Shown in pieces: positions 49,053 to 64,000 of a stretch of 64,000 nucleotides of DNA. The stretch comes from Terrimicrobium sacchariphilum (GTDB taxonomy: Bacteria > Verrucomicrobiota > Verrucomicrobiia > Chthoniobacterales > Terrimicrobiaceae): the NCBI RefSeq assembly GCF_001613545.1, contig NZ_BDCO01000002.1:2046001-2110000 (forward strand), read 5' to 3'. Both the position numbers and the translations under genes were made by a program. How positions within the stretch are numbered: position 1 is the first letter of the stretch; every line of letters starts with the position of its first letter. The notes beneath the pieces were generated by a model that saw nothing but the letters and a program-made list of their open reading frames with translations, was not told the DNA's origin and did not search any database.

Positions 49053-51329
49053 CTAGAAGGACATTAGGTCCTTGCGGGCGGCGCTTTGGACTTTGTTGAG
49101 CTCCTGAATGATGCTCAGGGTGCGCTCTTCCTTTTTCACGAGCTGACTGATGGCAGCGGGATTTTGGTCCTCGAGCAATTGGATCTCCGTGAGAAGCATC
49201 TGGGCGGAGTTGATGACCGATGCGAGTTGGCGCATCGACTCCTTGTCCGTACGGTTTTCCTTGGTCACCTGCCGGTAATATTCGATCTGGCGCTCAAGCC
49301 AGCGAGCAGCTTCGTCGATGGCGGCCTCTCCTCCCACGAGTCGACCCTGAGGCGTAAAGGCGGGCGGGGTGGGTTCATTGGGACGTACCGGGATCACGCT
49401 TTGCGGCACTTCGGCGATGCCGGGAGTGGTCGAGCGATTGGTGATGATCGTCGGGGTGATGAAAATGATGAGGTTCTTCTTGCTGCGGGCCCGACCCTTG
49501 GCTTTGAAGAGCTCCCCGATGCCGGGAATGTCTCTCAGGAACGGGACGCCATTGCGGGCATATTCGTCGAAGGCCTGCTCAAGGCCGCCGACGGCCAGGG
49601 TGTAACCCGAATCCACCTGCAACGCGGCATTGTAGATGCGCGATGAGGCAATGGGGTAGTCATTGCCTTGAATGGTGGTGGTGCCCACGATGGAGGAAAT
49701 GGTGATCGCAACATTCAGGACGACCGAATTGTCGGGCATGGTCTTGGGCAGGATGTTGATGATCGTGCCGATGGGAAGATACTCGACCTCGGCAGTGGTC
49801 GTGCCGCCGACGCCGGGTGTCACAGAAGACGATGAGGCGAGAACGGGCTGATTGACGACGCTACGGATGACCACCTCGCGGTTGTTGATGGTGAGCACGC
49901 GGGGGTACTGCACCGTCGTTGTCTCGTTATCGGTAAGAAAGGCCTGAAGCGCAGCGGAGACATCGTGCACTGAGAGGACTGCCGAGTAGGGCATCGCCGC
50001 CGAGACCGTGTAGTCCTTGTTGTATGTCGAGTAGTCGTAGGGAGAGGAGCCGGGGGGAAGCTGGCCGGATTGGCGCTGGTTCTGATTGTTGGTATCGATG
50101 TTGATCGATCCAGAGGGCGACGCCTGGATATTGGTCAGCGAGACGTCGAAGCCGCCCTTGAGCGTGCCTGCCCAGTTGATGCCGAGCTCTTTCGACGGGT
50201 CCTTGGTCGTCTCGAAGAACTTTACCTCGATACCGATGAGAGCCTGGGGACGATCCACTGCGCTGAGGTAACCCTCAACCCATTGGTGCTGCTGGCGAGT
50301 GGCGATGACATACACCGTGCCGGAATCCGCATTGTAAATGACCTGCGGGCCTCCATCGCCAGTGCTGTTGGCGGCCAACTGGCTGCCGGGGGCCACGGCG
50401 GTTGGAGTCGTTTGAAGGGAGCCGAAATTTTCGACGCTGGCCTCGTCGGCGTGCGCTGCCGAAACCGAACTGGTCGGAATGCCGAGCAGGGACTTGATCT
50501 GTTCAATGATCTTTGGCGTCTCCACCTTGAAGACCGTGGTGGCACCCTGCATGTTGATGTCCCCGATGCCCGTGCCGCTCGATGAACTGGAGTTTGAGTT
50601 GGCGCTGCCACCCGTGGTGCCATTGCCACCCTCGTACTTGACGTTGTCCTGTGGGTTGAACTTGATTTTGTAGATTCGCCCGACGAGTTCCTTTTCGTTG
50701 GTGGGGCGCATGAACCACACACCGTTTTCGTAGAAGATCGTGACGCCATTGGCCTTCGCGACGGTCTCAAGGGTCCGGAACGGACTGGCCTTCAGGGTGA
50801 AAGTGACGAGCGTATTTTCGGCAGCCGAGGACTCCTGCAGGGCAACGAAGGGGATGCCGGCATCATCTGCGAGGAAACGGAGGACGTCGCGAAGGGAGGC
50901 TCGGTCAAACTCATAGAGCTTGGCTGGCGCATTGCGGAGCTTTGCCGCCATGGCGTTGCCCCAGTTGTAGTCCGGGTAAACCTCGAAAGCCGGAGCGGGA
51001 ATCGTCTGGGGCGCCAGCGGGACGGTCATCTGGGCGACCGGGGTGGCATTGGCAAGTGCCGCAGGCGTAGCCGCCACGACGGGCGCGGGAGCCAGTGCTG
51101 CCGGGGTCGGCACGCTAACGCGAATCGAAGGCGGTTGAGAAGGTTGGGGAGGCGGAGTCTGCGTAACTACGGCCGGCGGCTGTTGCGCGATGACTGTCGG
51201 TACGTTCTGCTGTGCGGCGGCACCGCATAGACTGGATGCCATAAGGCTAATGACTAACGCGGACTGCTTGCCGGGGCAGGCAATCGCGTTTCGAGCCTCA
51301 CGGGCAGAACGAAAACACAGGCTCTTCAT
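49053..51329 (-). CDS. Secretin (PilQ/GspD-like outer-membrane channel of the pilus system)
   Basis: A 758-residue protein. A signal peptide (about residues 20-40, ending CGAAAQ) leads to a Pro/Ala/Thr/Val-rich linker (~40-115), an STN-like domain (RASLRDVLRFLADDAGIPFV), N-domains interrupted by a Gly/Ser/Asn stretch (GGNGTTGGSANSNSSSSSG), and the secretin barrel with VEYLPIGTIINILPKTMPDNSVVLN, TLAVGGLEQ, VPFLRDIPGIGELFKAKGR and LIIFITPTII. A ~120-residue helical tail follows, longer than in PilQ. It resembles the Amuc_1098-type secretin of Akkermansia (recalled). It is divergent from the pilus operon, which lacks another secretin. Confidence 0.93.
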   Translation of the reverse strand: MKSLCFRSAREARNAIACPGKQSALVISLMASSLCGAAAQQNVPTVIAQQPPAVVTQTPPPQPSQPPSIRVSVPTPAALAPAPVVAATPAALANATPVAQMTVPLAPQTIPAPAFEVYPDYNWGNAMAAKLRNAPAKLYEFDRASLRDVLRFLADDAGIPFVALQESSAAENTLVTFTLKASPFRTLETVAKANGVTIFYENGVWFMRPTNEKELVGRIYKIKFNPQDNVKYEGGNGTTGGSANSNSSSSSGTGIGDINMQGATTVFKVETPKIIEQIKSLLGIPTSSVSAAHADEASVENFGSLQTTPTAVAPGSQLAANSTGDGGPQVIYNADSGTVYVIATRQQHQWVEGYLSAVDRPQALIGIEVKFFETTKDPSKELGINWAGTLKGGFDVSLTNIQASPSGSINIDTNNQNQRQSGQLPPGSSPYDYSTYNKDYTVSAAMPYSAVLSVHDVSAALQAFLTDNETTTVQYPRVLTINNREVVIRSVVNQPVLASSSSVTPGVGGTTTAEVEYLPIGTIINILPKTMPDNSVVLNVAITISSIVGTTTIQGNDYPIASSRIYNAALQVDSGYTLAVGGLEQAFDEYARNGVPFLRDIPGIGELFKAKGRARSKKNLIIFITPTIITNRSTTPGIAEVPQSVIPVRPNEPTPPAFTPQGRLVGGEAAIDEAARWLERQIEYYRQVTKENRTDKESMRQLASVINSAQMLLTEIQLLEDQNPAAISQLVKKEERTLSIIQELNKVQSAARKDLMSF

Positions 51330-51533
51330 TGGTTAGGGCGGCATCCGCATGTTCAGTCTGCGGGAGGTGAATAAGTAGGGGGTTGGCAGGCTATTTACCA
51401 GCCCAAAGTGCATTGGGATAGCCCAAAAGTTCAGAGAATTTACGCATTCAGTTGCATAAATTGCTTTCTGCCCAAAGTGCTTTCATGGAGTTTTTTGCTG
51501 GCATCTGGCAGAGGGAATGATCATTGTTGTTGC
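51330..51533. promoter_or_regulatory. Divergent regulatory region with repeated GCCCAAAGTGC motif
   Basis: Between the secretin and the pilus operon. GCCCAAAGTGC occurs at 51401-51411 and 51470-51480, and a partial copy GCCCAAAAGTT at 51421-51431. The first copy is part of an inverted repeat CCCAA-AGTGCA-TTGGG. The spacing of copies one and two-partial is 20 bp, about two helical turns. It is AT-richer than its surroundings. No convincing -35/-10 pair stands out. Confidence 0.45.
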
Positions 51534-54035
51534 GTGAAGTCGGTGAAATCTGCGCCGTGCGTCTGGGCGTTCACCCTGGTCGAAATCCTTTTGGCCATAG
51601 CGGTGATCTCTGTTTTGACTTCAGCGGGCTATTATGTCGCGACCACCACGAAAGAGACGGCGCGAGAAAACAAGCTCCGCTCCGACGTTACGAATCTTAA
51701 TACGGCGGTGCAGCTGTATGTTGCCAATGGTGGGACCATCCCGGCAAATGCCACTGCTCAGCAGGTTCTCACCAAGCTGCAGAGCCGGGCGACAGGTGCG
51801 TCTGCGGCTGTGGCCATCGGGCTGTCAGGCAGCTTTGTTGATCCCCGATTGACGCCTTCCGTCCAATCGTCGGATCAGGCTTCAGGCAGCGAACTGCGCG
51901 CGGTCTGGGTGCCTGCGGCGGGTGCTGGGGAGGCGGGAAAGTTTGCCGTAGTCGCGACAGGGCAGGGAATACGGGAGTTTTCCATCGATGAAAGCAAAGC
52001 GGCGGCAGGGGCGTCCACCCCAGCTCCAGAGGTAAGGCAGCAAACAATGGAAGCTGTCTCCCTGGCTGAGTCGAATCCTCACTGGGTCTGGGGTGTCTCC
52101 GATTCCCAGCCAGCAGCGGCAGAATTGGGCGCCACACCGACAACCGGGGCCGCGGCGGGACCTTCTGCAACACCATCCGCGAGCAATCTGTCGCAACTGG
52201 ATCCTCCGAGCTTTAGTCGCGGAGGCGGCTCTTATGATCTGAGTTTGTTTCCCATGGCAGACCTGACGTTGAGCAATCCCAACCTGGTTCCGTCCAAGGT
52301 TTATTATCAGGTCGCAGGAGGGGCACCTCAGGAATATACTGGGGGGACTCTGCCCTCGTTCCATCCAGACACCCAGGTGACGGCATGGGTGAAATCCAAC
52401 TCCGCCGCATATTCGGATAGCTCGATGGTCAATGCGACCTACGACAATCTGGTAAAGACCCTCCAGGTATCCCTGAGCGGTCCGACGAGCCTGACCTATC
52501 AGCAGGCTGGCGGAGCCATGTACGGAAGCGCCTCGGTAGCGGCCCCGGTCGCGACGGCGACGGTCACGACATCCGGGATCTCCTCAGCCTATCAAGGGAC
52601 GTCTTATTATGTGATCTATACGAGTGTGGGTTCCGCGACGCCCTTGACCACTGGAGTCTCAAGCGGGAGTGCGACTACTGCGGCTATTGATCTGTCGCTA
52701 TCCAACTGGGGCACGGCATCGTCTTTGACTGTCAGTGCTGCGGCGAAGGCGGTTCGCACGGACTACTATGCGGATAGCTCAGTGCAGACGATCTCCGTGG
52801 GGAAATCTCCGACCGCGCTGGCGATGCCATCGATCAGCCCGACCTCAGGCGAGCGCTCTGCCTTGGTGGCGGTCACGGTCACTGCCTCGGGCACGCTTCC
52901 GGCAGGGTTTCAGATTTACTACACTCAGGATGGTTCAGATCCCGGGGTAGGATCAAATGGCAGACCTACCAGTGTAGCGGCGACGTTGCTGCCTCTGGGA
53001 GGCGGAACGAGTGGCACTTTTACTCCAGAGTCCGGAGGTACGGGAGCTCTGGCAGTGAAGGCGCGAGTTTATGGTCCCTCGGGTTATGAAAGCTGGTTTA
53101 CGCCGAGCAGCGTGATTTCGGTGGTTTATACGGAGGCCTCGTCCGGCATTCCGGAAGGCGCCCTCGTCGGAAGCGCTGATGTCAACGGTGTCTTTGTGGG
53201 ATCGCTTATTTACTCGGATCAGAATGGGTCGATGCCCAGCAATATCAACTTCAACAGCGGGGCTCAGATCCAGCAGGGGAATATCTATTTCCCGGGTACA
53301 CCGGTAATCGATCTTCAAAATGGCGGTGTAATCGTCGGCAATCAGTACAATGCCGACGGCACCCAGGTGATTCCTGCGACGGACACCCGCAAGATCGTGG
53401 ACCTTAACGGGAGCATCTATCCGACCAATTACACAGTCCGCTTTAACAACAATGCAGTGGTGCAGGGAAAAGTCTATCGACGGAGCACTCCCCCCGAGTT
53501 TCCGACTGTCTCCAAACCCCCGTCGCCCACGAATTCCAATGGTGTCAACATCAACAGCCCGCAAACAACGGCGGTCAATCCCGCAATCACGGCTAATGTC
53601 AATCTGAATAATGGAGCGGGGGATGTGAAACTGGCTCCTGGGAGCTACGGAAGTCTGAATGCCAGCTCTGGAACTTCATTTGTCATCGGGGACCCTAACT
53701 CGACGACGCCGCAGGTCTATAGCTTTCAGAGCCTGAGTCTCAATAGCGGCAGTCAGCTCAAAGTGGTCGGCCCGGTAATTTTGACGATGAGCGGAAATCT
53801 TTTCATCAACGGCGGCTCGATCATGGGAAATTCAGCGCATCCCGAATGGCTGCAACTGAATATGTACTCGGGAGACTTTCAGGTGAATAGCAATGGTCAG
53901 GCGTATGCAAGGGTGGTCGCTCCCAAGAACAACGTCGGGCTCGATGGGACGTTTACGGGTAGCGTGGTGGCCAAATATCTGCGGATTAATGGCAATGGTG
54001 TAGCCTTTACTGTTCCGCCTGTAATCGGTAGTTAA
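51534..54035 (+). CDS. Giant prepilin-like protein with adhesin-type repeats
   Basis: An 833-residue protein. The N-terminus VKSVKSAPCVWA-FTLVEILLAIAVI is a type IV prepilin signal, cut after Ala12 with Glu at +5. The helical spine and LRSDVTNLNTAVQLYV resemble pseudopilins. After ~residue 150 the protein is Ser/Thr/Gly-rich: Pro/Ala linkers, then beta domains, among them a chitobiase-like strand set near 458-530 (FQIYYTQDGSDPG, then VYGPSGYESW), and a C-terminal repetitive beta region (~700-833; GNLFINGGSIMG, NVGLDGTFTGSVVAKYL) like DUF7305/polymer-forming domains. It is likely a tip or minor pilin with adhesive function. Start GTG at 51534 or 51543. Confidence 0.8.
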   Translation: MKSVKSAPCVWAFTLVEILLAIAVISVLTSAGYYVATTTKETARENKLRSDVTNLNTAVQLYVANGGTIPANATAQQVLTKLQSRATGASAAVAIGLSGSFVDPRLTPSVQSSDQASGSELRAVWVPAAGAGEAGKFAVVATGQGIREFSIDESKAAAGASTPAPEVRQQTMEAVSLAESNPHWVWGVSDSQPAAAELGATPTTGAAAGPSATPSASNLSQLDPPSFSRGGGSYDLSLFPMADLTLSNPNLVPSKVYYQVAGGAPQEYTGGTLPSFHPDTQVTAWVKSNSAAYSDSSMVNATYDNLVKTLQVSLSGPTSLTYQQAGGAMYGSASVAAPVATATVTTSGISSAYQGTSYYVIYTSVGSATPLTTGVSSGSATTAAIDLSLSNWGTASSLTVSAAAKAVRTDYYADSSVQTISVGKSPTALAMPSISPTSGERSALVAVTVTASGTLPAGFQIYYTQDGSDPGVGSNGRPTSVAATLLPLGGGTSGTFTPESGGTGALAVKARVYGPSGYESWFTPSSVISVVYTEASSGIPEGALVGSADVNGVFVGSLIYSDQNGSMPSNINFNSGAQIQQGNIYFPGTPVIDLQNGGVIVGNQYNADGTQVIPATDTRKIVDLNGSIYPTNYTVRFNNNAVVQGKVYRRSTPPEFPTVSKPPSPTNSNGVNINSPQTTAVNPAITANVNLNNGAGDVKLAPGSYGSLNASSGTSFVIGDPNSTTPQVYSFQSLSLNSGSQLKVVGPVILTMSGNLFINGGSIMGNSAHPEWLQLNMYSGDFQVNSNGQAYARVVAPKNNVGLDGTFTGSVVAKYLRINGNGVAFTVPPVIGS

Positions 54036-54053: not shown

Positions 54054-55142
54054 ATGGCCTGCCTGCAGCCTGAACCTCCAATGCGACTCCTTGATCTTCC
54101 TCCAGATTCTCCTGTTGCCCAGCGCATCAAGGAGTTGGCTACCTCTGCGTCGGTCAGTGACTTTTACCTGACCCCGTTTGAGCGCATGAGCTACAAGTAC
54201 AACGGGCAGTTAATCTACGACGATATCGTCTTCGAGATGGCGGTGCCCGAGCATCTGGAGCCGGGTTGCGACGATAGCGCAATGGATCTCTTTGACTACC
54301 GCTTCCGTGTCAACCAGATGGTGACGCGCGGGCGCTTGCGTTGGGTACTCCGTCTCCTGCCGAGCAAGATCCCCGAGCCGGAAGCCATTCGTGTGCCCAC
54401 GCCAGCCATCAAGGCTTTTCTGGAGGCCAAGAATGGACTGTTCCTGATCTGCGGAGCTACCGGCAGTGGTAAATCGACTACGATTGCCTCCATGGTGTTG
54501 CACCGGGCGAAACGGCGGCGTGAACATGTCATTTCCTTTGAGGATCCGATCGAGTTTGTCTATCCGGATGGTCTTCCGTCGCTGGTTTCCCAACGTGAGA
54601 TGGGATCGGACGAGATTGATTTCTCGTTGGCGTTGAGGGCGGCTCTCCGCCAGGCCCCCGACGTGATTATCGTGGGTGAGATTCGAGACGGCGAGACGGC
54701 GGAGATTGCATTGCAGGCGGCGGAGACTGGTCACGTGGTTGTAGCCACCCTGCACACATCTTCTGCCTCCCAGACGGTACAGCGATTTTTGAAGCTTATT
54801 TCCTCGGATCGGCTGGAAAGCTCTCAAGAGACGCTGGCCGATACGCTGCGGCTCGTGATGTGCCAGCGATTGCTGCTGGACGAGGGACTGGGCAAGCGCT
54901 TCCCGATTCATGAGGTGATGCTGCAATACGATGGCGTCGTCAACATCATCAGGCGGGGCGATTTCAAGAAGATCGACCAGGAGCTCGAAACGGGCTGGAA
55001 GCGCGGAATGTTCAATTTTGAGAAAAGCATCCAGGTCCGCGCGGATGAGGGCTATCGCAGTAGCTCCGGCGTGTCGAAGACCGGAAACTCCTGGGAGGAG
55101 ATTGAAGAGTATCTGGAGAAACAGGTGGAGGTAGCGCCATGA
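54054..55142 (+). CDS. PilT-like secretion/retraction ATPase
   Basis: A 362-residue hexameric-type ATPase. A short PAS-like N-domain (~28-115, SVSDFYLTPFERMSY) precedes Walker A GATGSGKST, the Asp box HVISFEDPIEFVYP, Walker B DVIIVGEIRD and the His box TGHVVVATLHTSSASQT. There is no tetra-Cys zinc site as in PilB/GspE, and the LVSQREMG and ALRQAPDVI phrasing is closest to PilT/PilU. It should drive pilus retraction at the cytoplasmic base. ATG at 54081 is an alternative start. Its last 4 bases overlap the next gene. Confidence 0.9.
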   Translation: MACLQPEPPMRLLDLPPDSPVAQRIKELATSASVSDFYLTPFERMSYKYNGQLIYDDIVFEMAVPEHLEPGCDDSAMDLFDYRFRVNQMVTRGRLRWVLRLLPSKIPEPEAIRVPTPAIKAFLEAKNGLFLICGATGSGKSTTIASMVLHRAKRRREHVISFEDPIEFVYPDGLPSLVSQREMGSDEIDFSLALRAALRQAPDVIIVGEIRDGETAEIALQAAETGHVVVATLHTSSASQTVQRFLKLISSDRLESSQETLADTLRLVMCQRLLLDEGLGKRFPIHEVMLQYDGVVNIIRRGDFKKIDQELETGWKRGMFNFEKSIQVRADEGYRSSSGVSKTGNSWEEIEEYLEKQVEVAP

Positions 55143-56008
55143 CGTTGAAGGATGTTGTTTCGGTATTGAATTTTGCAGCCTTCCGTCCGGAGCCGGATGA
55201 TCCGTCGGCCAGCTGGCGTCGTCGTTTTCCGACCCACCGCACGGTGCTGGTGGGGGTGGGAAAGGCTTCTCTCGGCTGGCGGGGAGTGCTGAAAAATGGT
55301 CGCTTCACCGAGGGCGGGTTGATCCGGGGCGAGCTGAAGGAGTTGATCAATCAGGCCTCGATCCAAATCAAGGATCTGGCTGACGATGGCTGGTGTGCGG
55401 TATCGCTGAACACCCGCTATGTGATCAGCCTGGAGACCAACCTTTCCCGACGACCGGGCAGCGAGGACGTAATCAAGACCACCCCTCGTAATGTGCTCGG
55501 TGCGCGCTATGAGCGAGGGAAACGGTATGCGGTGACGCACAACCCGGAGACAAATGCCAGCATCCTGCTTTCCACCGACGAGGACTATATCAAAAAACTC
55601 GAAGGTATGCTGAAGGAGGCCGGGCTCAGTATTGGGCGGGTCTGTTGCGGCTCTTACGTGCTTCTCCGTCACGCCCTCTCGGCGACCAACTCGACGCGGA
55701 GCGGGGAAAAGACGGCGACCTGTTTCTATGTTGTCTGCTGTATGGGGGCGGTCTGTGCTCTCGTGCAGGACCAGGACCGCTGGCTGGAGCTTCGCTCACG
55801 CACGGATGTCTACGAGGATACTCTCGATCCGGTGATCGATCTGGTGACGCCTTTCAAGCAGCGCGTCGCTCCGGAGAGTGAGATCGTCCTGATCTGTGAT
55901 CAACCCTATGAGGGGCTGGCGGAAGCATTGCAGGAACTGTTCACGGGCCATAAAATCACGGATCTCTCCCAACCCGATCTGCTCTGGAGTCTGATCGCCC
56001 AGTACTAA
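55139..56008 (+). CDS. PilM/GspL-like cytoplasmic assembly protein (divergent)
   Basis: A 289-residue protein without membrane segments. I do not recognise its motifs, but the position between the ATPase and a PilN-like protein is that of PilM. Weak similarity to the actin-like fold is seen in HRTVLVGVGKASLGWRGVL (strand pair near 34-52) and TCFYVVCCMGAVCALVQDQDRW (near 193-214), where PilM has its second nucleotide-binding strand pair. The canonical phosphate loops are not visible, and Cys are unusually frequent near 177-178 and 194-206. It may be a degenerate PilM or a GspL-type protein. Confidence 0.55.
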   Translation: MTLKDVVSVLNFAAFRPEPDDPSASWRRRFPTHRTVLVGVGKASLGWRGVLKNGRFTEGGLIRGELKELINQASIQIKDLADDGWCAVSLNTRYVISLETNLSRRPGSEDVIKTTPRNVLGARYERGKRYAVTHNPETNASILLSTDEDYIKKLEGMLKEAGLSIGRVCCGSYVLLRHALSATNSTRSGEKTATCFYVVCCMGAVCALVQDQDRWLELRSRTDVYEDTLDPVIDLVTPFKQRVAPESEIVLICDQPYEGLAEALQELFTGHKITDLSQPDLLWSLIAQY

Positions 56009-56598
56009 TGCAAATCCTCGCCAAATCGATCGATGACCTGAAGACGGAGCGCAAAGGGGTAAGCCCGCCGCTGCCGCCGATCTTTCGTTTGCTGCCAATG
56101 TTGTTTTATTTGACGATAGCCGCATCGATCGGCCTCAACGGCATCTTCTTTCTCCGGCTCAGCCAGGAGGTGCAGCGCAAGGAGGCAGCGATCAAGCGCA
56201 AGTCGGATTACGACGCAGCGCTCAAAAAGGCGCAGACTGAGCGACGGGATCTCGAAGGCGAGGCGAAAAAAGCCTCCGACATTCTTTCCTGGGTGGATAC
56301 CACGCGGCCCCTTCAGCCGCTTGTCGTCGAGATAGCCCGTAGCGTAGCGGCAGACTCGACCATGGTGGAACTGCGCATGGAGCGTGATGAGGATTCCCCG
56401 AATCAGATCAAACTCTCGATGCGGCTCAATAGCGACTCCACCCGGCAACTCGACAATACGCTCGAGAAAATCTCCTCTCAGCGTTACCGCACCTACTCTC
56501 CTCAACAGACCGTGAACGGGCAGGAAATCGACTACAAAGCCACCTTGCTCTGGCAGGATGCCTCCCGCCCTCAACCTCCGGAACCTGCCGCCAAATGA
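56008..56598 (+). CDS. PilN-like inner-membrane assembly protein
   Basis: A 196-residue bitopic protein: short cytoplasmic N-terminus, one membrane span (about residues 26-50, FRLLPMLFYLTIAASIGLNGIFF), a coiled coil (~52-90) and a ferredoxin-like periplasmic domain (~95-180; TMVELRMERDED, IKLSMRLNSDSTRQLDNTLEKI). This is the PilN/GspL-C layout, although the usual INLLP motif near the start is absent. It likely binds the PilM-like protein and pairs with the PilO-like protein. It starts on the last base of the upstream stop codon and overlaps the next gene by 4 bp. Confidence 0.7.
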   Translation: MQILAKSIDDLKTERKGVSPPLPPIFRLLPMLFYLTIAASIGLNGIFFLRLSQEVQRKEAAIKRKSDYDAALKKAQTERRDLEGEAKKASDILSWVDTTRPLQPLVVEIARSVAADSTMVELRMERDEDSPNQIKLSMRLNSDSTRQLDNTLEKISSQRYRTYSPQQTVNGQEIDYKATLLWQDASRPQPPEPAAK

Positions 56599-57134
56599 AC
56601 AACAAGCAAATTGCCTGCGTGATCGTGCTGATCATGCTCCTGGGATTGCTCCAGGTGACGAGCTGGATGAACAGCCGGATGGTTAAGATGCAGGGAGAAG
56701 CGGCAAGTGCAACCCAGGCGGCGGATTTGGCGTCGATCCAGCTGATGGGTGAGCAGCGCCAGCTTGAGGAGTTGAAGAAAAGCTCCAGAAATCTCATCGA
56801 TTTTCTCAATACGTGGCAGCCCTATTTCGCGCAGACGGACTCGTCTCAGAACGCCGAGTTGCGTATCTCCCTTCGCATCAAGCAGGACAACCTGGTGAGC
56901 CTTTCGCAGCGCTATGAGGTTGCCTCGATCAAAAACAACAAGTCGCTCCCGTATGTGATGCGGGCGCATCTGTCGTTCGAAGACAACTACGCGCGGCTCC
57001 TCAATTGGTTCGGAGCGATTGAAACAGAGTTGCCCACCCTTCGCATTTCGAGTCTTCGTATCGCTCCGGGAACCGGAGAGAGCGACCTCAAGATTGATGC
57101 CATCCTGGAGCAGCCAATATCCAGTACCCGATGA
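56595..57134 (+). CDS. PilO-like inner-membrane assembly protein
   Basis: A 179-residue bitopic protein: membrane span at about residues 5-22 (IACVIVLIMLLGLLQVTSW), coiled coil (~25-70) and a ferredoxin-like end (~75-178; LRISLRIKQDNLVSLSQRYE, VMRAHLSFEDNYARLLNWFGAIE, LRISSLRIAP). The pattern of a single span, coiled coil and late FEDNYARLLNWF matches PilO/GspM. By position it is the counterpart of Akkermansia Amuc_1100 (recalled), a surface protein studied for host effects, but it is much shorter. Confidence 0.7.
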   Translation: MNNKQIACVIVLIMLLGLLQVTSWMNSRMVKMQGEAASATQAADLASIQLMGEQRQLEELKKSSRNLIDFLNTWQPYFAQTDSSQNAELRISLRIKQDNLVSLSQRYEVASIKNNKSLPYVMRAHLSFEDNYARLLNWFGAIETELPTLRISSLRIAPGTGESDLKIDAILEQPISSTR

Positions 57135-57679
57135 AAAAGCGCCTTTTGATTTGTGTTTTTCTGGCAGCCGGAGTCGTGGTGCACGGTCAGGAGATCGGGC
57201 TTTTGCCCCAGCAAAAAGCCTCGCTGACAGTATCGTCCAGTGAGCGCAATCCTTTTGGGAAAAAGCCCCCCAAGAAAACCGTTGAGCAGGCCAAGGTGCC
57301 CGTGGAAAACGAGGAGAGCAGACTGCGAGATGCGATCAGCGAATTGCCGCTGGCGGGTGTGGTGGAAGCTCGTGGCGGAGTAAAGGTGCTCCTTGGCTCG
57401 ATTGCCATCCAGGAGAATGAGTTGCTGCCGGCCTTGATCTCCGGGCAGACTGAGCAGATTCGCGTGATTTCGGTGACTCCCAAGGAGGTGATGCTGGCAT
57501 TTGTCGATTCTGATGGAACGGCGAACAACCGGAAGATTCGCCTCCAGGTGGATATGACGCCCTCTGTGCGCTACAAGCTCGGTGGCAGCTCTGCCACCGC
57601 CGCAAAGGATGAAACCAAGCAGGAGTCCGCTCTCGGAGGCGTGTTTAAGAGGAATGACTCTGCTCCGAACAAGCAATAG
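57131..57679 (+). CDS. PilP-like periplasmic protein
   Basis: A 182-residue protein with a signal peptide (about residues 1-20, ending VVHGQ) and a beta-type core (~75-155): AISELPLAGVVEARGGVKVLLGS, then IRVISVTPKEVMLAFVDSDG. PilP and GspC homology-region proteins connect PilNO to the secretin and have similar short strands. The assignment rests mainly on gene order (after the PilO-like gene) and the size. It overlaps its upstream neighbour by 4 bp. Confidence 0.6.
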   Translation: MKKRLLICVFLAAGVVVHGQEIGLLPQQKASLTVSSSERNPFGKKPPKKTVEQAKVPVENEESRLRDAISELPLAGVVEARGGVKVLLGSIAIQENELLPALISGQTEQIRVISVTPKEVMLAFVDSDGTANNRKIRLQVDMTPSVRYKLGGSSATAAKDETKQESALGGVFKRNDSAPNKQ

Positions 57680-58631
57680 ACGGCAGTTTGCTACGCGAGG
57701 TGACAAGCGCCGGGCGATCCGGGGGTTTAGCTTCTCGGAACTGCTGATGGCTGCCGCCATCGCGGTCTGCGTCTTGACCGTGGCAGTCATCGCGTTTCGC
57801 GCGGTTTCGCAAAACGCGAACCGCTATGGGCAGTACACAAAAATACAGCTGCCAAGTGGTGCACTCTTTGCCCTATACGGCCTGAGCGGAACGGATTTGC
57901 AGACCTGGGTGGCTCCCAACTACGGTCGGGTCGCACAGGCTGAGTTGTTGCGGGAGACCTTCTATCAAGATATTTCCCATGCGACGGCGGTTTACTGCCT
58001 TGCAAGGACGGGAAGAGATTCGATCGTTCGCCCAACGTCGATCAATATCGATCAGACGATTTATCCCAATCTTGACGCGAGGACCTTGGGGACGCCGGAG
58101 GATTTCCGAGTTTTTCTCGAACGCAATGGCGTGGCCGATGCCGGGTTCTTTTTTGGATATCGAGGCGCTGCAGGGCGAACAAACCTCTCGATATTTATCC
58201 TCCAGCCATCGACCTCCGAGACGACGCTGAGCGTTCGCGCCGTGTATGAACTCGACATGATCGCCACGGTGGGGACGCCAGGCGGCACCTACGTGTCTGT
58301 CCGGCGGTATGATAACTACAGCAACCAAAACCGGGCTCCGACCGACTACTACGATATCTTTTACCCGGAGAGCGATCCTGCGGACTTTCCCGTAACGGCA
58401 GTCCATTTTGAGTTAAGTCGTCGCCTGGCTCCGAGCGATACGGCTTACGACCTGTTCAAGGTAGCTCCCGAAAAGCCATTTTACTTTCTCTGGTGGCCTG
58501 ATCCGGCAACGCCGGTATTGGCTAACGACTCCAATCCGTCCTACGGGAGCGGTGATCCGCGCTCTGCATATGGTCAGATGGGCAGCCGGACATCGCTCTT
58601 TATGGTTGTGCCGATGTTTCCCGCCTTATGA
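57654..58631 (+). CDS. Minor pilin with long leader (PilW/GspJ-like)
   Basis: A 325-residue protein. The leader of 24 residues is unusually long and basic, ending RRAIRG, followed by FSFSELLMAAAIAVCVLTV with Glu at +5. The ectodomain is Tyr/Asp/Pro-rich with long loops (TPGGTYVSVRRYDNYSNQN) and a PilW-like C-terminal part. The ATG at 57654 lies inside the 3' end of the PilP-like gene (26-bp overlap), with AGAGGA right before it. The stop overlaps the next start (ATGA). Confidence 0.75.
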   Translation: MTLLRTSNRRQFATRGDKRRAIRGFSFSELLMAAAIAVCVLTVAVIAFRAVSQNANRYGQYTKIQLPSGALFALYGLSGTDLQTWVAPNYGRVAQAELLRETFYQDISHATAVYCLARTGRDSIVRPTSINIDQTIYPNLDARTLGTPEDFRVFLERNGVADAGFFFGYRGAAGRTNLSIFILQPSTSETTLSVRAVYELDMIATVGTPGGTYVSVRRYDNYSNQNRAPTDYYDIFYPESDPADFPVTAVHFELSRRLAPSDTAYDLFKVAPEKPFYFLWWPDPATPVLANDSNPSYGSGDPRSAYGQMGSRTSLFMVVPMFPAL

Positions 58632-59959
58632 GACGTAAGCGGAAATACATAGCCGGCTCGGTGCTGGTATACGCTCTCCTGATTTGCATGGTGGGCGCGG
58701 TGATGCTCGCCTCATGGATTTCTCTCCTCGGCAGCAGGGTCCGGTACGTCGAGGAGGCGGTTAAGCCAGCAATCAAACGGCGCGTCGTCCTCGAAAACAG
58801 CCGCGCTCTCGCGACGGAATACCTGCTGGAGAATGTATTGCCATATTCGTATCAGGCGATGCCTGAGATCGACTTTGATGCTTTGGACGGCTGGGGGGAG
58901 TTTTCCTTGGATGCCTCCGCGCAGATCCTGACGCCGCTAAACTCCACCACCGTTCAGCATGGAGTAAGTGGCGGTACCAGCTACGGCCAGGTGAATCACT
59001 TTTCGCCAGGTCTGGGTATCGGATTTCAGACGGTTCTCTCCGGGCAGCTTTCGGACGGGGAGGGGATGAATGCCTGGGCGTTTTATGCCAAATCGCGGAG
59101 CCCGATATTTGCCGGCGACTTGTTGACGATGCAGAGAAGCGGGGTGGTTTCTCCTGTGGGGAGTAACGTTTTTCTGGGTGGGGTCGTCATGGGAGCGGCG
59201 AATTTTGTTGCCTGGCAGGCCGGTTCCTTTGGGCTGACAGCCAAGACCTTCCAAGCTGCGACGGTGGCGGGATTGGCGACCATCAACGGCCCCGATGGAC
59301 CCTTGGTTCAGCTGGATTTTCCCTTCATACCGGTGACATCGGGGAGCGGGTATTATGATGGCACTCTGAATGTGGTGAGCCCCTCGGGCGGTATCAACTC
59401 ACTAGCAACCCGGCTCGTCGGTTCTTCACCGGTGTTGGTGGACCCCCAGATTGCCCAGACGATGGGAGGAGCCACTACGGATGGCACGGGAGGGGTCACG
59501 ATCGACCTGGGCCAGATTTCGGGAAATTACAGTATCTCGGGCAACATGACTAGGCTGACCCTGATCGGTGTTGAGAATGGGGTGACAGGGGAAAGCTATC
59601 CCATGGCCCGTATCGTTTACGTCCAGACCGTGCCATCGGCTGGAGCCGCGACATCCATTGTCCTTTCAGGAAACAATACTCGCCGGGTGTACCTCGGTTT
59701 GAAAAAACTTGATGGCAGTGCCACCGTTTCGCTTTCCGGCGCCAATGCTTCCTGGCGCCTGGCAGGCTCGATTGAGAGTTGCCCCCTGACATTCAGCCTC
59801 GCCGGACACAGCCTGACCGTGACAGGAGGCTTTCGCACAAACCGGGGCTTTCAGATCTCAGGGGGCGGCTCGGTTACGATTCAGCGGGAAGCCGCCGCCT
59901 GGGGAAACCTTGAGTCGTTTGCGGATCGCAATGCCTGGCTGGAGGTTTATCGCCAATGA
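58628..59959 (+). CDS. PilX/GspK-like minor pilin with repetitive beta domain
   Basis: A 443-residue protein. N-terminus MRRKRKYIAGSVLVYALLICMVGAVMLAS resembles PilX-type signals (basic, then GSVL...), lacking the FTLIE phrase. After a helical region (~30-75) it has a Gly/Ser-rich beta region, ending LAGHSLTVTGGFRTNRGFQISGGG. The composition is like that of the giant prepilin at the start of the operon. Overlaps both neighbours by 4 bp. Likely part of the pilus tip complex. Confidence 0.65.
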   Translation: MRRKRKYIAGSVLVYALLICMVGAVMLASWISLLGSRVRYVEEAVKPAIKRRVVLENSRALATEYLLENVLPYSYQAMPEIDFDALDGWGEFSLDASAQILTPLNSTTVQHGVSGGTSYGQVNHFSPGLGIGFQTVLSGQLSDGEGMNAWAFYAKSRSPIFAGDLLTMQRSGVVSPVGSNVFLGGVVMGAANFVAWQAGSFGLTAKTFQAATVAGLATINGPDGPLVQLDFPFIPVTSGSGYYDGTLNVVSPSGGINSLATRLVGSSPVLVDPQIAQTMGGATTDGTGGVTIDLGQISGNYSISGNMTRLTLIGVENGVTGESYPMARIVYVQTVPSAGAATSIVLSGNNTRRVYLGLKKLDGSATVSLSGANASWRLAGSIESCPLTFSLAGHSLTVTGGFRTNRGFQISGGGSVTIQREAAAWGNLESFADRNAWLEVYRQ

Positions 59960-60345
59960 AAACCAAGGGATATACGCTCGTTGAGACGCTCGTTGCGGCG
60001 GGAATCCTGGTCGTAGCGATCGGCGCGGCTGCTGCCCTGGCGGTCACCATGACGGCCTTTGAGGAAGGAAATGCGACCGTTTCTCGCGCCTTCAACTATC
60101 AAGAGCAGGCGGCCAGGCTTTACCGGTTGGGTTTTACGCCGGACGAGGTAATCGCGCTGCTGCCTCCGGAATCCAGCGTCCAGAGCATGAACTTTACCAC
60201 GAATTCCCTGACAATTTCCAACCTCGGCACCGTGGAGACGGCGACATTGGAGATGGTCTTCACATCCGGATCCGCGATCACCTCAGCGACTGCTGGCGCG
60301 AATCAGATAAATACGATAACAGTCGTGCGGCCCAGCATCCGATAG
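59956..60345 (+). CDS. Short pseudopilin (PilV/GspI-like)
   Basis: A 129-residue protein. Leader MKTKG is followed by YTLVETLVAAGILVVAIGAAAALA, with Glu at +5, a complete prepilin signal. The C-terminal ~60 residues are Thr/Ser/Asn-rich beta strands. Size and position, next to PilW- and PilX-like genes, suggest a PilV/GspI role in priming the fibre. pilC starts 2 nt after its stop. Confidence 0.8.
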   Translation: MKTKGYTLVETLVAAGILVVAIGAAAALAVTMTAFEEGNATVSRAFNYQEQAARLYRLGFTPDEVIALLPPESSVQSMNFTTNSLTISNLGTVETATLEMVFTSGSAITSATAGANQINTITVVRPSIR

Positions 60346-60347
60346 CC

Positions 60348-61610
60348 ATGCTCAAGAAGGTCGTCCTTACCAATATCAACACTGCTCGTTCTTTCCCGGT
60401 CATCGTCGATACCGACGATGATCAAAAGGCGATCCTAGGCGCTGGAAAAGCGCCGAACGAGACCGCGGTGGTCACGGATATTGTGGGTGTTGACGAAGCC
60501 GTGCATCGCGGCACCACCAAGGCTCCCGGCAAGGAGGAGATGGTGACTCTCTTCGGCGGTCTGGCTCGATGCCTGGAACGGAATATCTCGACCGTCAAGA
60601 GTCTGGAGTTGATCTCGGGCCGCCTGTCCACACCCAGGTACCGGGGAGCGGTGGCGGACATCGCTCAGAAAGTGCTTGAGGGAGAGAAGTTGAGTGATTG
60701 CTTCGGCATGCATCCCGACCTTTTTACCGAGGACATCGTCGCGTTGATACGGGCCGGTGAGGAGTCGGGCCAGGTTCACGAAGTTTTCCGGCAAGTCGCA
60801 CGCTCAAATGACAAGACTCAACGTGTTTTGAAGAAACTGAGGGCTGGATTAGTTTATCCGGCCATCGTTCTGGTGCTCGCCATTGCTGTTGTAATTGTCA
60901 TGAGTTTTACCCTCGTGCCAGCAATTTCAAAGCTCTACGGCGCGATGCATGTGACTCTGCCGGTGGCTACCCGCATGATGATGGCGTTTTCTCAAACGTT
61001 GATCAAACAGCCCTACTTTGTATTGATTCCAATCATTGGCTTGGGGGCCTTGTTTAAATATTGGCCGAAGATATATCGAATTCCTCGAGTTCAATTGACT
61101 CTCACCAGAGTGCCCACGGTCGGGAACATAATCCGAAAATCGGCCGCGATGGTGAGTTTTCGGTGCTTGTCCATGCTGCTGCATGCCAATGTCCGAATCA
61201 GCACTGCGCTTGAAATCTCCGCGAGGAGTGCGAACCATGTGGAGTTCGAACAGTTTTTTTTGCGGGTGAGGGATCATATCATCGAAGGAATGTCCCTGCC
61301 TGAAGGATTCCTTATGGAATCACATTTACTCGGCCCCGATGGACGAATGATTGCCGGTGTAGTTCAAATGGCCGGTGAGACAGGCGGAGTGAACGAGTTG
61401 CTGGATGAAATCGCGGCAGATTATGAAGAGGAGCTTGATATCATTGCAGGCCAGCTCGACAAGATCATGGAGCCTTTCATGATCGTATTCCTGGCTGTGG
61501 TTGTGGGTTTTTTAATTTACGCTATTTACGGTCCAATTTTCAACCTGAGTCAGGTTCTCTTGCCGAAAAAGCCGGGTGCGCCTGTTCCTACAGCTGAAGT
61601 CAGTCGCTGA
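60348..61610 (+). CDS. Inner-membrane platform protein PilC/GspF
   Basis: A 420-residue protein. A ~60-residue non-conserved N-terminus precedes two GspF domains. The first has TLFGGLARCLERNISTVKSLELISG and DLFTEDIVALIRAGEESGQVHEVFRQVA; the second has AAMVSFRCLSMLLHANVRISTALEISA and LGPDGRMIAGVVQMAGETGGVNELLDEIA. Membrane spans lie at about 168-192, 216-236 and 375-398. It is the platform on which the ATPases act. The codon and base composition become visibly AT-richer from the middle of this gene onwards. Confidence 0.95.
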   Translation: MLKKVVLTNINTARSFPVIVDTDDDQKAILGAGKAPNETAVVTDIVGVDEAVHRGTTKAPGKEEMVTLFGGLARCLERNISTVKSLELISGRLSTPRYRGAVADIAQKVLEGEKLSDCFGMHPDLFTEDIVALIRAGEESGQVHEVFRQVARSNDKTQRVLKKLRAGLVYPAIVLVLAIAVVIVMSFTLVPAISKLYGAMHVTLPVATRMMMAFSQTLIKQPYFVLIPIIGLGALFKYWPKIYRIPRVQLTLTRVPTVGNIIRKSAAMVSFRCLSMLLHANVRISTALEISARSANHVEFEQFFLRVRDHIIEGMSLPEGFLMESHLLGPDGRMIAGVVQMAGETGGVNELLDEIAADYEEELDIIAGQLDKIMEPFMIVFLAVVVGFLIYAIYGPIFNLSQVLLPKKPGAPVPTAEVSR

Positions 61611-64000
61611 TGAAGCTCAGGCCGGGCACAGTATATTCCCGAGCGCTCGCTATTTTTTTGTTGGCGTCCCTATTGCTGCTGGGAGCAGTAGCCGCGCTGA
61701 CACAGTTAATTATCCTCCGGGAATTTAGTCAGACTGAGAGCCGGGAGCTTAAAGCGACAATGCAGCGTGTCGCTCTATTGCTGGGGAGGGAGGACGCTGC
61801 AATGGAAGGGGTGCTGAGCAATTGGGAACAAATTCCATTTTTTCGAAATATTGCACTAGGCTCATTAGCAAGGAATTTGAAAGAAGAAGAGGTCACGCGA
61901 TCATTGGAAGATTTGCGTGCAGATTTCTTCGCGGTGGTAGGCGAGGACGGCAGGATGCGTCGGGCTTTTTACCGTAATGAAAATATCCGGAAAAAGTTGG
62001 ATGCCCAAATCGGGGGGGTGATGTCCCGTGTAGCGAAGGATGGAAAGCCTGGGTGTTCCTCGGGCTTTGTCGTGATCTCCAATATGCTTTGCAGTGTGAG
62101 CTTCCTCAAGTTGGATGGCGCGCCCAATAAAGTTGTCGTTGGGCGAATTTTCGACAAGGACGCTTGGACGTTTATTGAACAGATGTTCTCTGCCGAGATC
62201 GGCTTTGGATCGTTTGGTGAACCTACAGCTGGTGTGATTTCTCCTGAAAATATCGTCGATCTTTTCAATAAGCAGGATGTCGTTATCAATGTGGAAAACA
62301 GTGACAGAATCACTGGTATCCGTTTGCTGAGAGGTATTGACGGTACGCCTCTTGGCTACATCAAGGTCTCGCAAGGTCGTCCTTTACGGCAGGAGGGGCT
62401 GCACGCCAGCAGTGTATTTTTGATCGGGATCTCTCTGGCGGGAAGCGCGCTGGTGGTTCTTGTGTGGATATTGCTGGATCGCACCATCTTGGCGAGAATC
62501 AGTGACCTGACTCGAAAGCTGGAACTTGAAAAACGCTCCGGGCGCTTGCCTGTGCGACTCGAGTTTAAGGGCGATGATGAATTGGGCACGCTGGCCAGAA
62601 GCATTGAGGATCTCGCCTCCAAGCTGGAACACTCTCAGGATCAGTATCGCGCCATCGTGGAAGATCAGGCGGAGTTGATTTGTCGATTTGACGAGAATTT
62701 CACCCTTACTTTCGGCAATGAGGTTTTCTGTCGGTATCTGCTGAACGGCAGGGCGACCATTGCGGATACAGTTCTGCTTGAGGTCTTGCCCGACGATGTG
62801 GCTGGTGAACTGAGGCGTGCTTTTGGGAGTCTCTCCAAGGACAGGCCGATGGTGATCCAAACGGTGGAGTTTTCCTTTCCTGATGGAAGGAACTCCATGT
62901 GGTTGCGAACTACGCTCAGGCGGGGGTTTGACGATCACGGGCGCTCCCGCGGCGGCCAGTGGGTGGCCTCTGACGTAACCACTCAGGTTCTTGCGCAGAA
63001 ACAGGCTCTGGAAACGGAGCGGAGGTTTCGACGTCTCTTTGAGACTTCCTCCGACGGCATTCTGTTGATCGACGTCGGAACGATGTTTGTAACCGACATC
63101 AATACGAGTCTCTGTCGCATGCTATTCCTGGCGGGTAGTGATGTGCTGGGCAAGAGATTGCAGGAACTTCCGATCTTTGCTCCGTGCATGCCGCTTATCC
63201 GTGACGCGTCGGCTCAGCCGTCAAAGGAGGTCTACGGCGGCAGTAAACGGGAATGTCGCCTGGATCGTGTGGACGGGACATCGCTTCATGCTGAGGTGCG
63301 ATGCTCCAGTTATCTGGTGGGTGATCGCAACTACATCCAGCTGAATTTCCGCAACATCAGTGAACGGGTGGAGGGAGAACACCAGATGCGGCTTCTCTCC
63401 GCCAAGCTCCTGCGATTGCAGGATGAGGAGCGACGACGCATTGCTCGGGAGTTGCATGACTCCACGGCTCAGAATCTCTCGGCGCTCGAAATGAATATCA
63501 GCCTGCTGGAGCCGATTATTCAGCCGAAAAACGGTCGAGCCACCCGGATCATCAAGGAAACCCGGGAGATCGTGCAGGAGTGCTCAAAGGAATTGAGAAA
63601 TATCTCCTATTTGCTCCATCCACCGCTCATCGACGAGGTTGGGTTGGCCTTTGCTGTGAAGTGGTTTGTCGATGGATTCGCCAAGCGCACGGGAATGGCC
63701 GTGCACCTCGAGGTTGATCCGCTGTTTCCTCGTCTCGCGGCTGAGATTGAGATGCCGCTTTTCCGGGTGGTACAGGAGGCGATGACCAATGTGTACCGGC
63801 ACTCCCGGGCGGACGATGTCTGGATCACGCTGCACCATACGGAAAATGAGGTCTCGCTGGAAATCCGAGACAATGGAAGGGGCTTCCCCGATCCTGAAGT
63901 ACTCGAGGCCGGGGGCATGGGCGGCGGGGTCGGCTTGGCGGGAATGAGGGAGAGGTTGTCCAATCTCGGGGGCTCGCTGGATGTGGCCAGTTCATCATTT
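61610..64000 (+). CDS. Membrane sensor histidine kinase (CHASE4-like, HAMP, PAS, HisKA_3), 3'-truncated by window
   Basis: 797 residues are visible and the frame is still open at the right edge. Two membrane spans (about 13-36 and 268-290) enclose a ~230-residue sensor like CHASE4. A HAMP (~290-340) and two PAS domains (~345-455, ~470-590) follow, then the phospho-acceptor box RRRIARELHDSTAQNLSAL with His616, the N box VQEAMTNVYRHSRA and G box DNGRGFP with GVGLAGMRERLSNLGG. This is the NarX/DegS (HPK7) type, which pairs with a LuxR-type regulator, likely encoded past the edge. Its ATG overlaps the pilC stop (TGATG), so it is coupled to the pilus operon. Confidence 0.9.
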   Translation, partial: MKLRPGTVYSRALAIFLLASLLLLGAVAALTQLIILREFSQTESRELKATMQRVALLLGREDAAMEGVLSNWEQIPFFRNIALGSLARNLKEEEVTRSLEDLRADFFAVVGEDGRMRRAFYRNENIRKKLDAQIGGVMSRVAKDGKPGCSSGFVVISNMLCSVSFLKLDGAPNKVVVGRIFDKDAWTFIEQMFSAEIGFGSFGEPTAGVISPENIVDLFNKQDVVINVENSDRITGIRLLRGIDGTPLGYIKVSQGRPLRQEGLHASSVFLIGISLAGSALVVLVWILLDRTILARISDLTRKLELEKRSGRLPVRLEFKGDDELGTLARSIEDLASKLEHSQDQYRAIVEDQAELICRFDENFTLTFGNEVFCRYLLNGRATIADTVLLEVLPDDVAGELRRAFGSLSKDRPMVIQTVEFSFPDGRNSMWLRTTLRRGFDDHGRSRGGQWVASDVTTQVLAQKQALETERRFRRLFETSSDGILLIDVGTMFVTDINTSLCRMLFLAGSDVLGKRLQELPIFAPCMPLIRDASAQPSKEVYGGSKRECRLDRVDGTSLHAEVRCSSYLVGDRNYIQLNFRNISERVEGEHQMRLLSAKLLRLQDEERRRIARELHDSTAQNLSALEMNISLLEPIIQPKNGRATRIIKETREIVQECSKELRNISYLLHPPLIDEVGLAFAVKWFVDGFAKRTGMAVHLEVDPLFPRLAAEIEMPLFRVVQEAMTNVYRHSRADDVWITLHHTENEVSLEIRDNGRGFPDPEVLEAGGMGGGVGLAGMRERLSNLGGSLDVASSSF

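Follow-up and report, generated by a model that had tools for sequence, protein, structure and literature searches.

The 64,000-base stretch of the Terrimicrobium sacchariphilum genome analysed here (contig NZ_BDCO01000002.1, positions 2,046,001 to 2,110,000; hereafter the window) carries at 51534-54035 on the forward strand a frame that is open across 833 codons and encodes an 833-residue prepilin. The genome of strain NM-5T comprises 4,751,807 bases in three contigs (PMC5532833). The gene is the first of a complete type IV pilus locus, which runs rightwards from a divergent gene for a PilQ-type secretin (Table 1). A PilT/PilU-type ATPase gene starts 18 bases downstream of it, followed by four genes whose names PilM, PilN, PilO and PilP are inferred, the third with a weak GspM match, by three minor pilins and by a platform protein. 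The true start of the PilW/GspJ-like gene probably lies at about 57654. The next gene, for a histidine kinase, extends beyond the end of the window; together with a response regulator (window 61610-64000, L044:2611-5704) it separates the platform gene from four tandem short pilins, which precede PilB (L044:5701-7567). This two-gene pair is found near pilus genes in relatives too and perhaps controls pilin expression. The spacer between the divergent pilQ and pilin genes is better conserved among three species than much of the adjoining coding DNA; it matched neither a sigma-70 promoter nor an Rfam family, and scans for promoters, terminators and repeats yielded nothing above chance or noteworthy.

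Table 1. Features of the type IV pilus locus in the window (residue numbers are those of the 833-residue pilin; a slash separates residues -1 and +1).
Feature	Position	Strand	Evidence
PilQ-type secretin, divergent neighbour	49053..51329	-	Pfam Secretin 4e-35; synteny
Spacer between divergent pilQ and 833-residue pilin gene	51330..51533		90-94% DNA identity among three species
Leader peptide MKSVKSAPCVWA of the 833-residue pilin	51534..51569	+	TIGR02532 over cut-off; conserved start; -1 is Gly/Ala in orthologues
Pilin module, residues 13-170	51570..52043	+	AlphaFold2 models; alignment; profile search of PDB
Ala/Pro/Thr-rich linker, residues 171-217	52044..52184	+	pLDDT about 30-50
Three Ig/Fn3-like beta domains, residues 218-305, 306-427 and 428-537	52185..53144	+	AlphaFold2; Foldseek and VIA for 218-537; CHB_HEX_C_1/Fn3_assoc in orthologues
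C-terminal beta-solenoid (DUF7305-like), residues 538-833	53145..54032	+	AlphaFold2; VIA matches; mosaic identity
PilT/PilU-type retraction ATPase	54054..55142	+	TIGR01420 1.4e-80, 271 bits, below cut-off 319
PilM-, PilN-, PilO- and PilP-like genes (four)	55139..57679	+	Position and conserved order; names inferred
PilW/GspJ-like minor pilin	57582..58631	+	Motif G/FSFSELL conserved in orthologues
GspK/PilX-like minor pilin, 443 residues, without Glu5	58628..59959	+	G/SVLVYALL; orthologues also without Glu5
PilV/GspI-like minor pilin	59956..60345	+	N_methyl over cut-off; G/YTLVETL conserved
PilC/GspF-like platform protein	60348..61610	+	Followed by histidine kinase, response regulator, four short pilins and PilB

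The start codon of the large pilin is a GTG at 51534, which in a five-genome alignment coincides with the ATG of relatives in two other genera; the block TTGTTGC(G/A)TGAA that spans it is invariant in all five genomes. An upstream start at 51408, which would lengthen the frame, was rejected on the same alignment, and the start lies ahead of the hydrophobic segment, as the preliminary description had assumed. That description had also called the product a prepilin, and all elements of a class III signal are indeed present: a short leader with Gly or Ala as its last residue, a hydrophobic tract and Glu5, the last invariant among 24 orthologues. The sequence MKSVKSAPCVWA/FTLVEILLAIAVISVLTSAGYY reaches 18.9 bits against TIGR02532, the NCBIfam model of prepilin N-termini (cut-off 16.3), whereas Pfam N_methyl stays below its cut-off (17 versus 21.2) and exceeds it in several orthologues. 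From this sequence, prepilin peptidase is predicted to cut after Ala12; one gene for such a peptidase was found in the genome (PF06750, 113 bits, C3:363330). Alanine at position -1 had been considered unusual, which it is not: among 27 orthologues with a readable motif, nine have Ala and 18 Gly, other prepilins of T. sacchariphilum likewise carry Ala, and the published signal allows 'Gly or Ala' at this position (PMC9934059).

An AlphaFold2 model of the protein, built from 24 sequences (mean pLDDT 82, pTM 0.42), is confident for the single domains and not for their mutual arrangement. The pilin module is modelled as a helix of 50 residues (15-64) followed by a small alpha/beta head, so that the pilin spine by which the preliminary description had proposed to judge its reading is present in the predicted structure. 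In a profile search of the PDB with this module pilins rank first (PilE1 1e-9, GspG 1e-8), and its only structural matches at Z of at least 2 are XcpG, EpsG, PulG, PilE1 and toxin-coregulated pilin, with low Z-scores of 2.4-3.5. Beyond a linker that is predicted to be flexible, the model contains three Ig-like domains and a terminal beta-solenoid, in line with the adhesin-like beta domains that had been described; a Foldseek search of a viral library gave just generic Ig/Fn3 matches. The chitobiase-like label attached to the motif TQDGSDPG holds in part. CHB_HEX_C_1 and Fn3_assoc exceed their cut-offs in several orthologues, but Fn3_assoc is sub-threshold here (14.3 bits versus 23), and the motif belongs to the third Ig-like domain, a spacer. 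The suggestion of a polymer-forming C terminus fared similarly: DUF7305 (PF23981) has no Pfam match in the 833-residue pilin, but it is nearly reached by some orthologues and passed by a paralogue (30.9 versus a cut-off of 27), and the modelled segment is a solenoid. VIA-align superimposed this solenoid on the ice-binding protein 5uyt (Z 13.2, rmsd 2.8, 172 residues) and on the Thermus thermophilus pilin ComZ (6qvi; Z 12.5, rmsd 3.9, 211 residues); in the row that follows, Z falls to 8.8.

Of 58 genomes sampled from the order, 17 contain relatives of the pilin; relatives also occur at 30 loci of named genomes, and span Chthoniobacterales to Verrucomicrobiales (Prosthecobacter and others). Orthologues that head the operon are always large, with about 420-840 mature residues. 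When 188 genomes sampled evenly across the class were searched, the pilin module gave full-length matches in about eleven; the weaker matches reach only the generic N-terminal helix. Twelve related genomes and most of the 30 loci elsewhere share the gene order PilQ, large pilin, PilT, M, N, O, P, W, X, V, C. The paralogue mentioned above shares 38% identity over 309 residues and is a stand-alone large pilin of 734 residues with Ala at -1, encoded away from type IV pilus genes (L030:10254-12458; C2:656 kb); apart from this one other copy, a search of the genome for silent module cassettes found none. Another stand-alone relative (L057:9420-10058) has a terminal sequence with DESGS resembling a vWA metal site; vWA was not accepted as a further module, as Pfam VWA matched it sub-threshold only. 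A mobile or phage origin was rejected, since viral contigs and plasmids contained no relative and PHROG gave no match.

Before PilB, where T. sacchariphilum has its four short pilins, relatives have two to four homologues of the first of these. The short pilins adjoining PilB are likely the shaft subunits, and because they occupy this position both here and in relatives, there is no need for the 833-residue protein to form the shaft. We therefore rejected it as the major pilin, a role against which its large size also argues, and regard it as a minor pilin. The preliminary description had pointed to PilY1 and PilX for comparison, and the protein is neither. PilX and GspK are pilins that lack Glu5, unlike the protein studied here; the K-like member of this operon is the gene at 58628, whose product has a large beta-rich part, with larger frames in relatives. 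This part matched no Pfam family and, by sequence, no PDB chain, and a shared origin with the solenoid was discarded after a negative profile comparison. PilY1 is a non-pilin with a beta-propeller (PF05567), a family that matched neither the 833-residue pilin nor anything else in the T. sacchariphilum genome. It was detected in one of the 188 genomes of the class, which indicates that the search itself works.

While the pilin module is kept across relatives, the terminal module varies and is a solenoid, a DUF4114 domain or a choice-of-anchor K domain. In Chthoniobacterales, Ig/CHB-like domains are combined with the solenoid. DUF4114, with a best score of 39 bits versus a cut-off of 27, exceeds this value in two of the three genomes G005, G006 and G013 and falls below it in the third, and was assigned by eye in G008 and G011. 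Each of the five choice-of-anchor K members that were scanned is over the cut-off (63-91 bits versus 30), and the remaining ones were placed in this group by resemblance. On a tree built from the pilin module, at least four changes of terminal module are needed; the tree is weakly resolved, and its well-supported branches alone allow a single origin for each module.

Within the genus, too, three genomes suggest an exchange. Between T. sacchariphilum and its sister LR76, the pilin module, linker and Ig domains are 80-93% identical in amino acids and the other operon proteins 85-98%, whereas the solenoid drops to 59%. Across the same boundary, identity at four-fold degenerate sites is 32% in the solenoid and 38-71% elsewhere (amino acids 80-98%). 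The solenoids of LR76 and the third species, by contrast, are 97% identical. Four-fold degenerate sites mirror the amino-acid pattern (32% versus 63%). Because the degenerate sites show the same drop, the solenoid of T. sacchariphilum looks, from these sequences, like one replaced by a divergent allele and not like the product of fast protein change alone. Phylogenetically informative sites agree: 284 in the solenoid unite the sister with the third species versus 36 T. sacchariphilum with the sister, as compared with 123 versus 227 before the boundary. Fisher's test puts this shift at p of about 4e-49, a value that is only a guide, since it treats sites as independent and the boundary was picked after the data had been seen.

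Taking together the prepilin signal, operon context, conservation and module exchange as they are read from the sequences, we propose, with a probability of roughly two-thirds, that the 833-residue protein is a modular, tip-located minor pilin that presents an exchangeable ligand-binding module. Prepilin peptidase would cut the leader after Ala12, and the hydrophobic helix would then pack among the neighbouring I-, J- and K-like minor pilins. Polymerisation of the short pilins into a shaft behind this pilin would carry its large extracellular arm of linker, three Ig-like spacers and solenoid outward, where the terminal module may grip a surface ligand, and PilT-driven retraction would draw the cell toward it. 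Candidate ligands are a surface polymer, another cell or DNA. Size and precedent suggest the placement at the tip: a large arm would clash within the shaft, as has been argued for Streptococcus sanguinis PilB and for ComZ (PMC8179133, PMC9934059; PMC6561018), which makes the tip the natural position. PilY1 ordinarily serves as the tip adhesin, and its detection in just one of the 188 genomes of the class is the reason for proposing a tip adhesin here. Since the clade retains the pilin part and swaps the terminal module, such a pilus could be retargeted.

Modular pilins are a known kind of protein, with over 1,200 members in 264 architectures by 2021 and experimental precedent for adhesion (PMC8179133, PMC9934059). 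By its predicted architecture the 833-residue protein would belong among them, combining a pilin module with non-pilin domains that are seen in the AlphaFold2 model and, in orthologues, as CHB_HEX_C_1, DUF4114 and choice-of-anchor K. Like S. sanguinis PilB and PilC (PMC8179133, PMC9934059), it is a large minor pilin with extra domains grafted C-terminally to the pilin module, and in PilC an Ig-like domain likewise separates the pilin from the effector module. The S. sanguinis effectors are a vWA domain and a concanavalin-like lectin, in contrast to the three Ig-like domains and solenoid found here (DUF4114 or choice-of-anchor K in relatives) and to the setting in a diderm operon. With PilY1/PilC of diderm type IVa pili the protein would share its probable role, that of an adhesin presented at the tip with variable outer modules.

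That the ligand is a polysaccharide, as the preliminary description had proposed, is a special case of the preferred reading. The tip adhesin itself is probable, but the narrower version appears rather unlikely. The CHB_HEX_C_1 and Fn3_assoc signatures of the orthologues and the lectin nature of S. sanguinis PilC (PMC9934059) speak for it; yet these signatures mark the Ig-like spacers, no carbohydrate-binding module exceeded its cut-off, and the terminal module is a solenoid whose nearest structures are ice-binding proteins and ComZ.

The resemblance to ComZ raises a different prospect, namely that DNA is caught at the pilus tip by the solenoid arm, and that retraction through PilQ would deliver it for natural transformation. 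Among tip pilins of known structure, the nearest with a comparable solenoid is ComZ, a large pilin whose beta-solenoid belongs to the fold class predicted here, and it binds DNA and not a surface (PMC6561018), a counterpoint to the adhesin reading; moreover, the genome encodes a ComEC homologue, below its curated cut-off. However, because the ice-binding protein fits equally well, the match to ComZ is one at the level of the fold, and the ComZ solenoid has itself been reported to resemble an ice-binding protein (PMC6561018). The profile of the present solenoid found no PDB chain by sequence, ComZ included. The ComZ solenoid interrupts the sheet of a GspK-like head between its last two strands, an arrangement that the 833-residue protein does not have: here the solenoid forms the end of the chain, three Ig domains precede it, and the pilin that carries it has Glu5. 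The present solenoid has a net charge of about 0, those of relatives range from -16 to +3, and the substitution of unrelated modules in relatives would be odd for a DNA receptor. We consider this function unlikely, but a rival to be taken seriously.

Least likely of all is a core assembly pilin of the H type, with an arm that acts as a cap or gate of the pilus and a terminal module that only stabilises or spaces this arm and has no ligand of its own: the strictly conserved gene position and pilin module and weak GspG/GspH profile matches would suit it, but three unrelated terminal modules and one replaced within a genus favour ligand diversity over capping.

Returning to the modular tip pilin, we find it possible, though on balance doubtful, that a whole diderm clade, Chthoniobacterales and Verrucomicrobiales, has replaced PilY1 with one dedicated carrier pilin at the head of the type IV pilus operon, whose outer module is exchanged as a cassette (unrelated folds in the long term, divergent alleles within a genus), so that recombination close to a domain boundary retargets the pilus. 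An operon-bound Verrucomicrobial family that swaps terminal modules on one carrier is a new variant of the modular pilins; a limited literature search found no description of it. Only for few bacteria is it understood how type IV pili select their adhesion target. In the present family, one gene in a fixed operon place, with a constant pilin part and a varying end, provides a natural series of tip modules on a single carrier. The family suggests how the type IV pili of a common soil phylum may do without PilY1, and swapping the binding module probably enables one and the same pilus to hold on to different targets.
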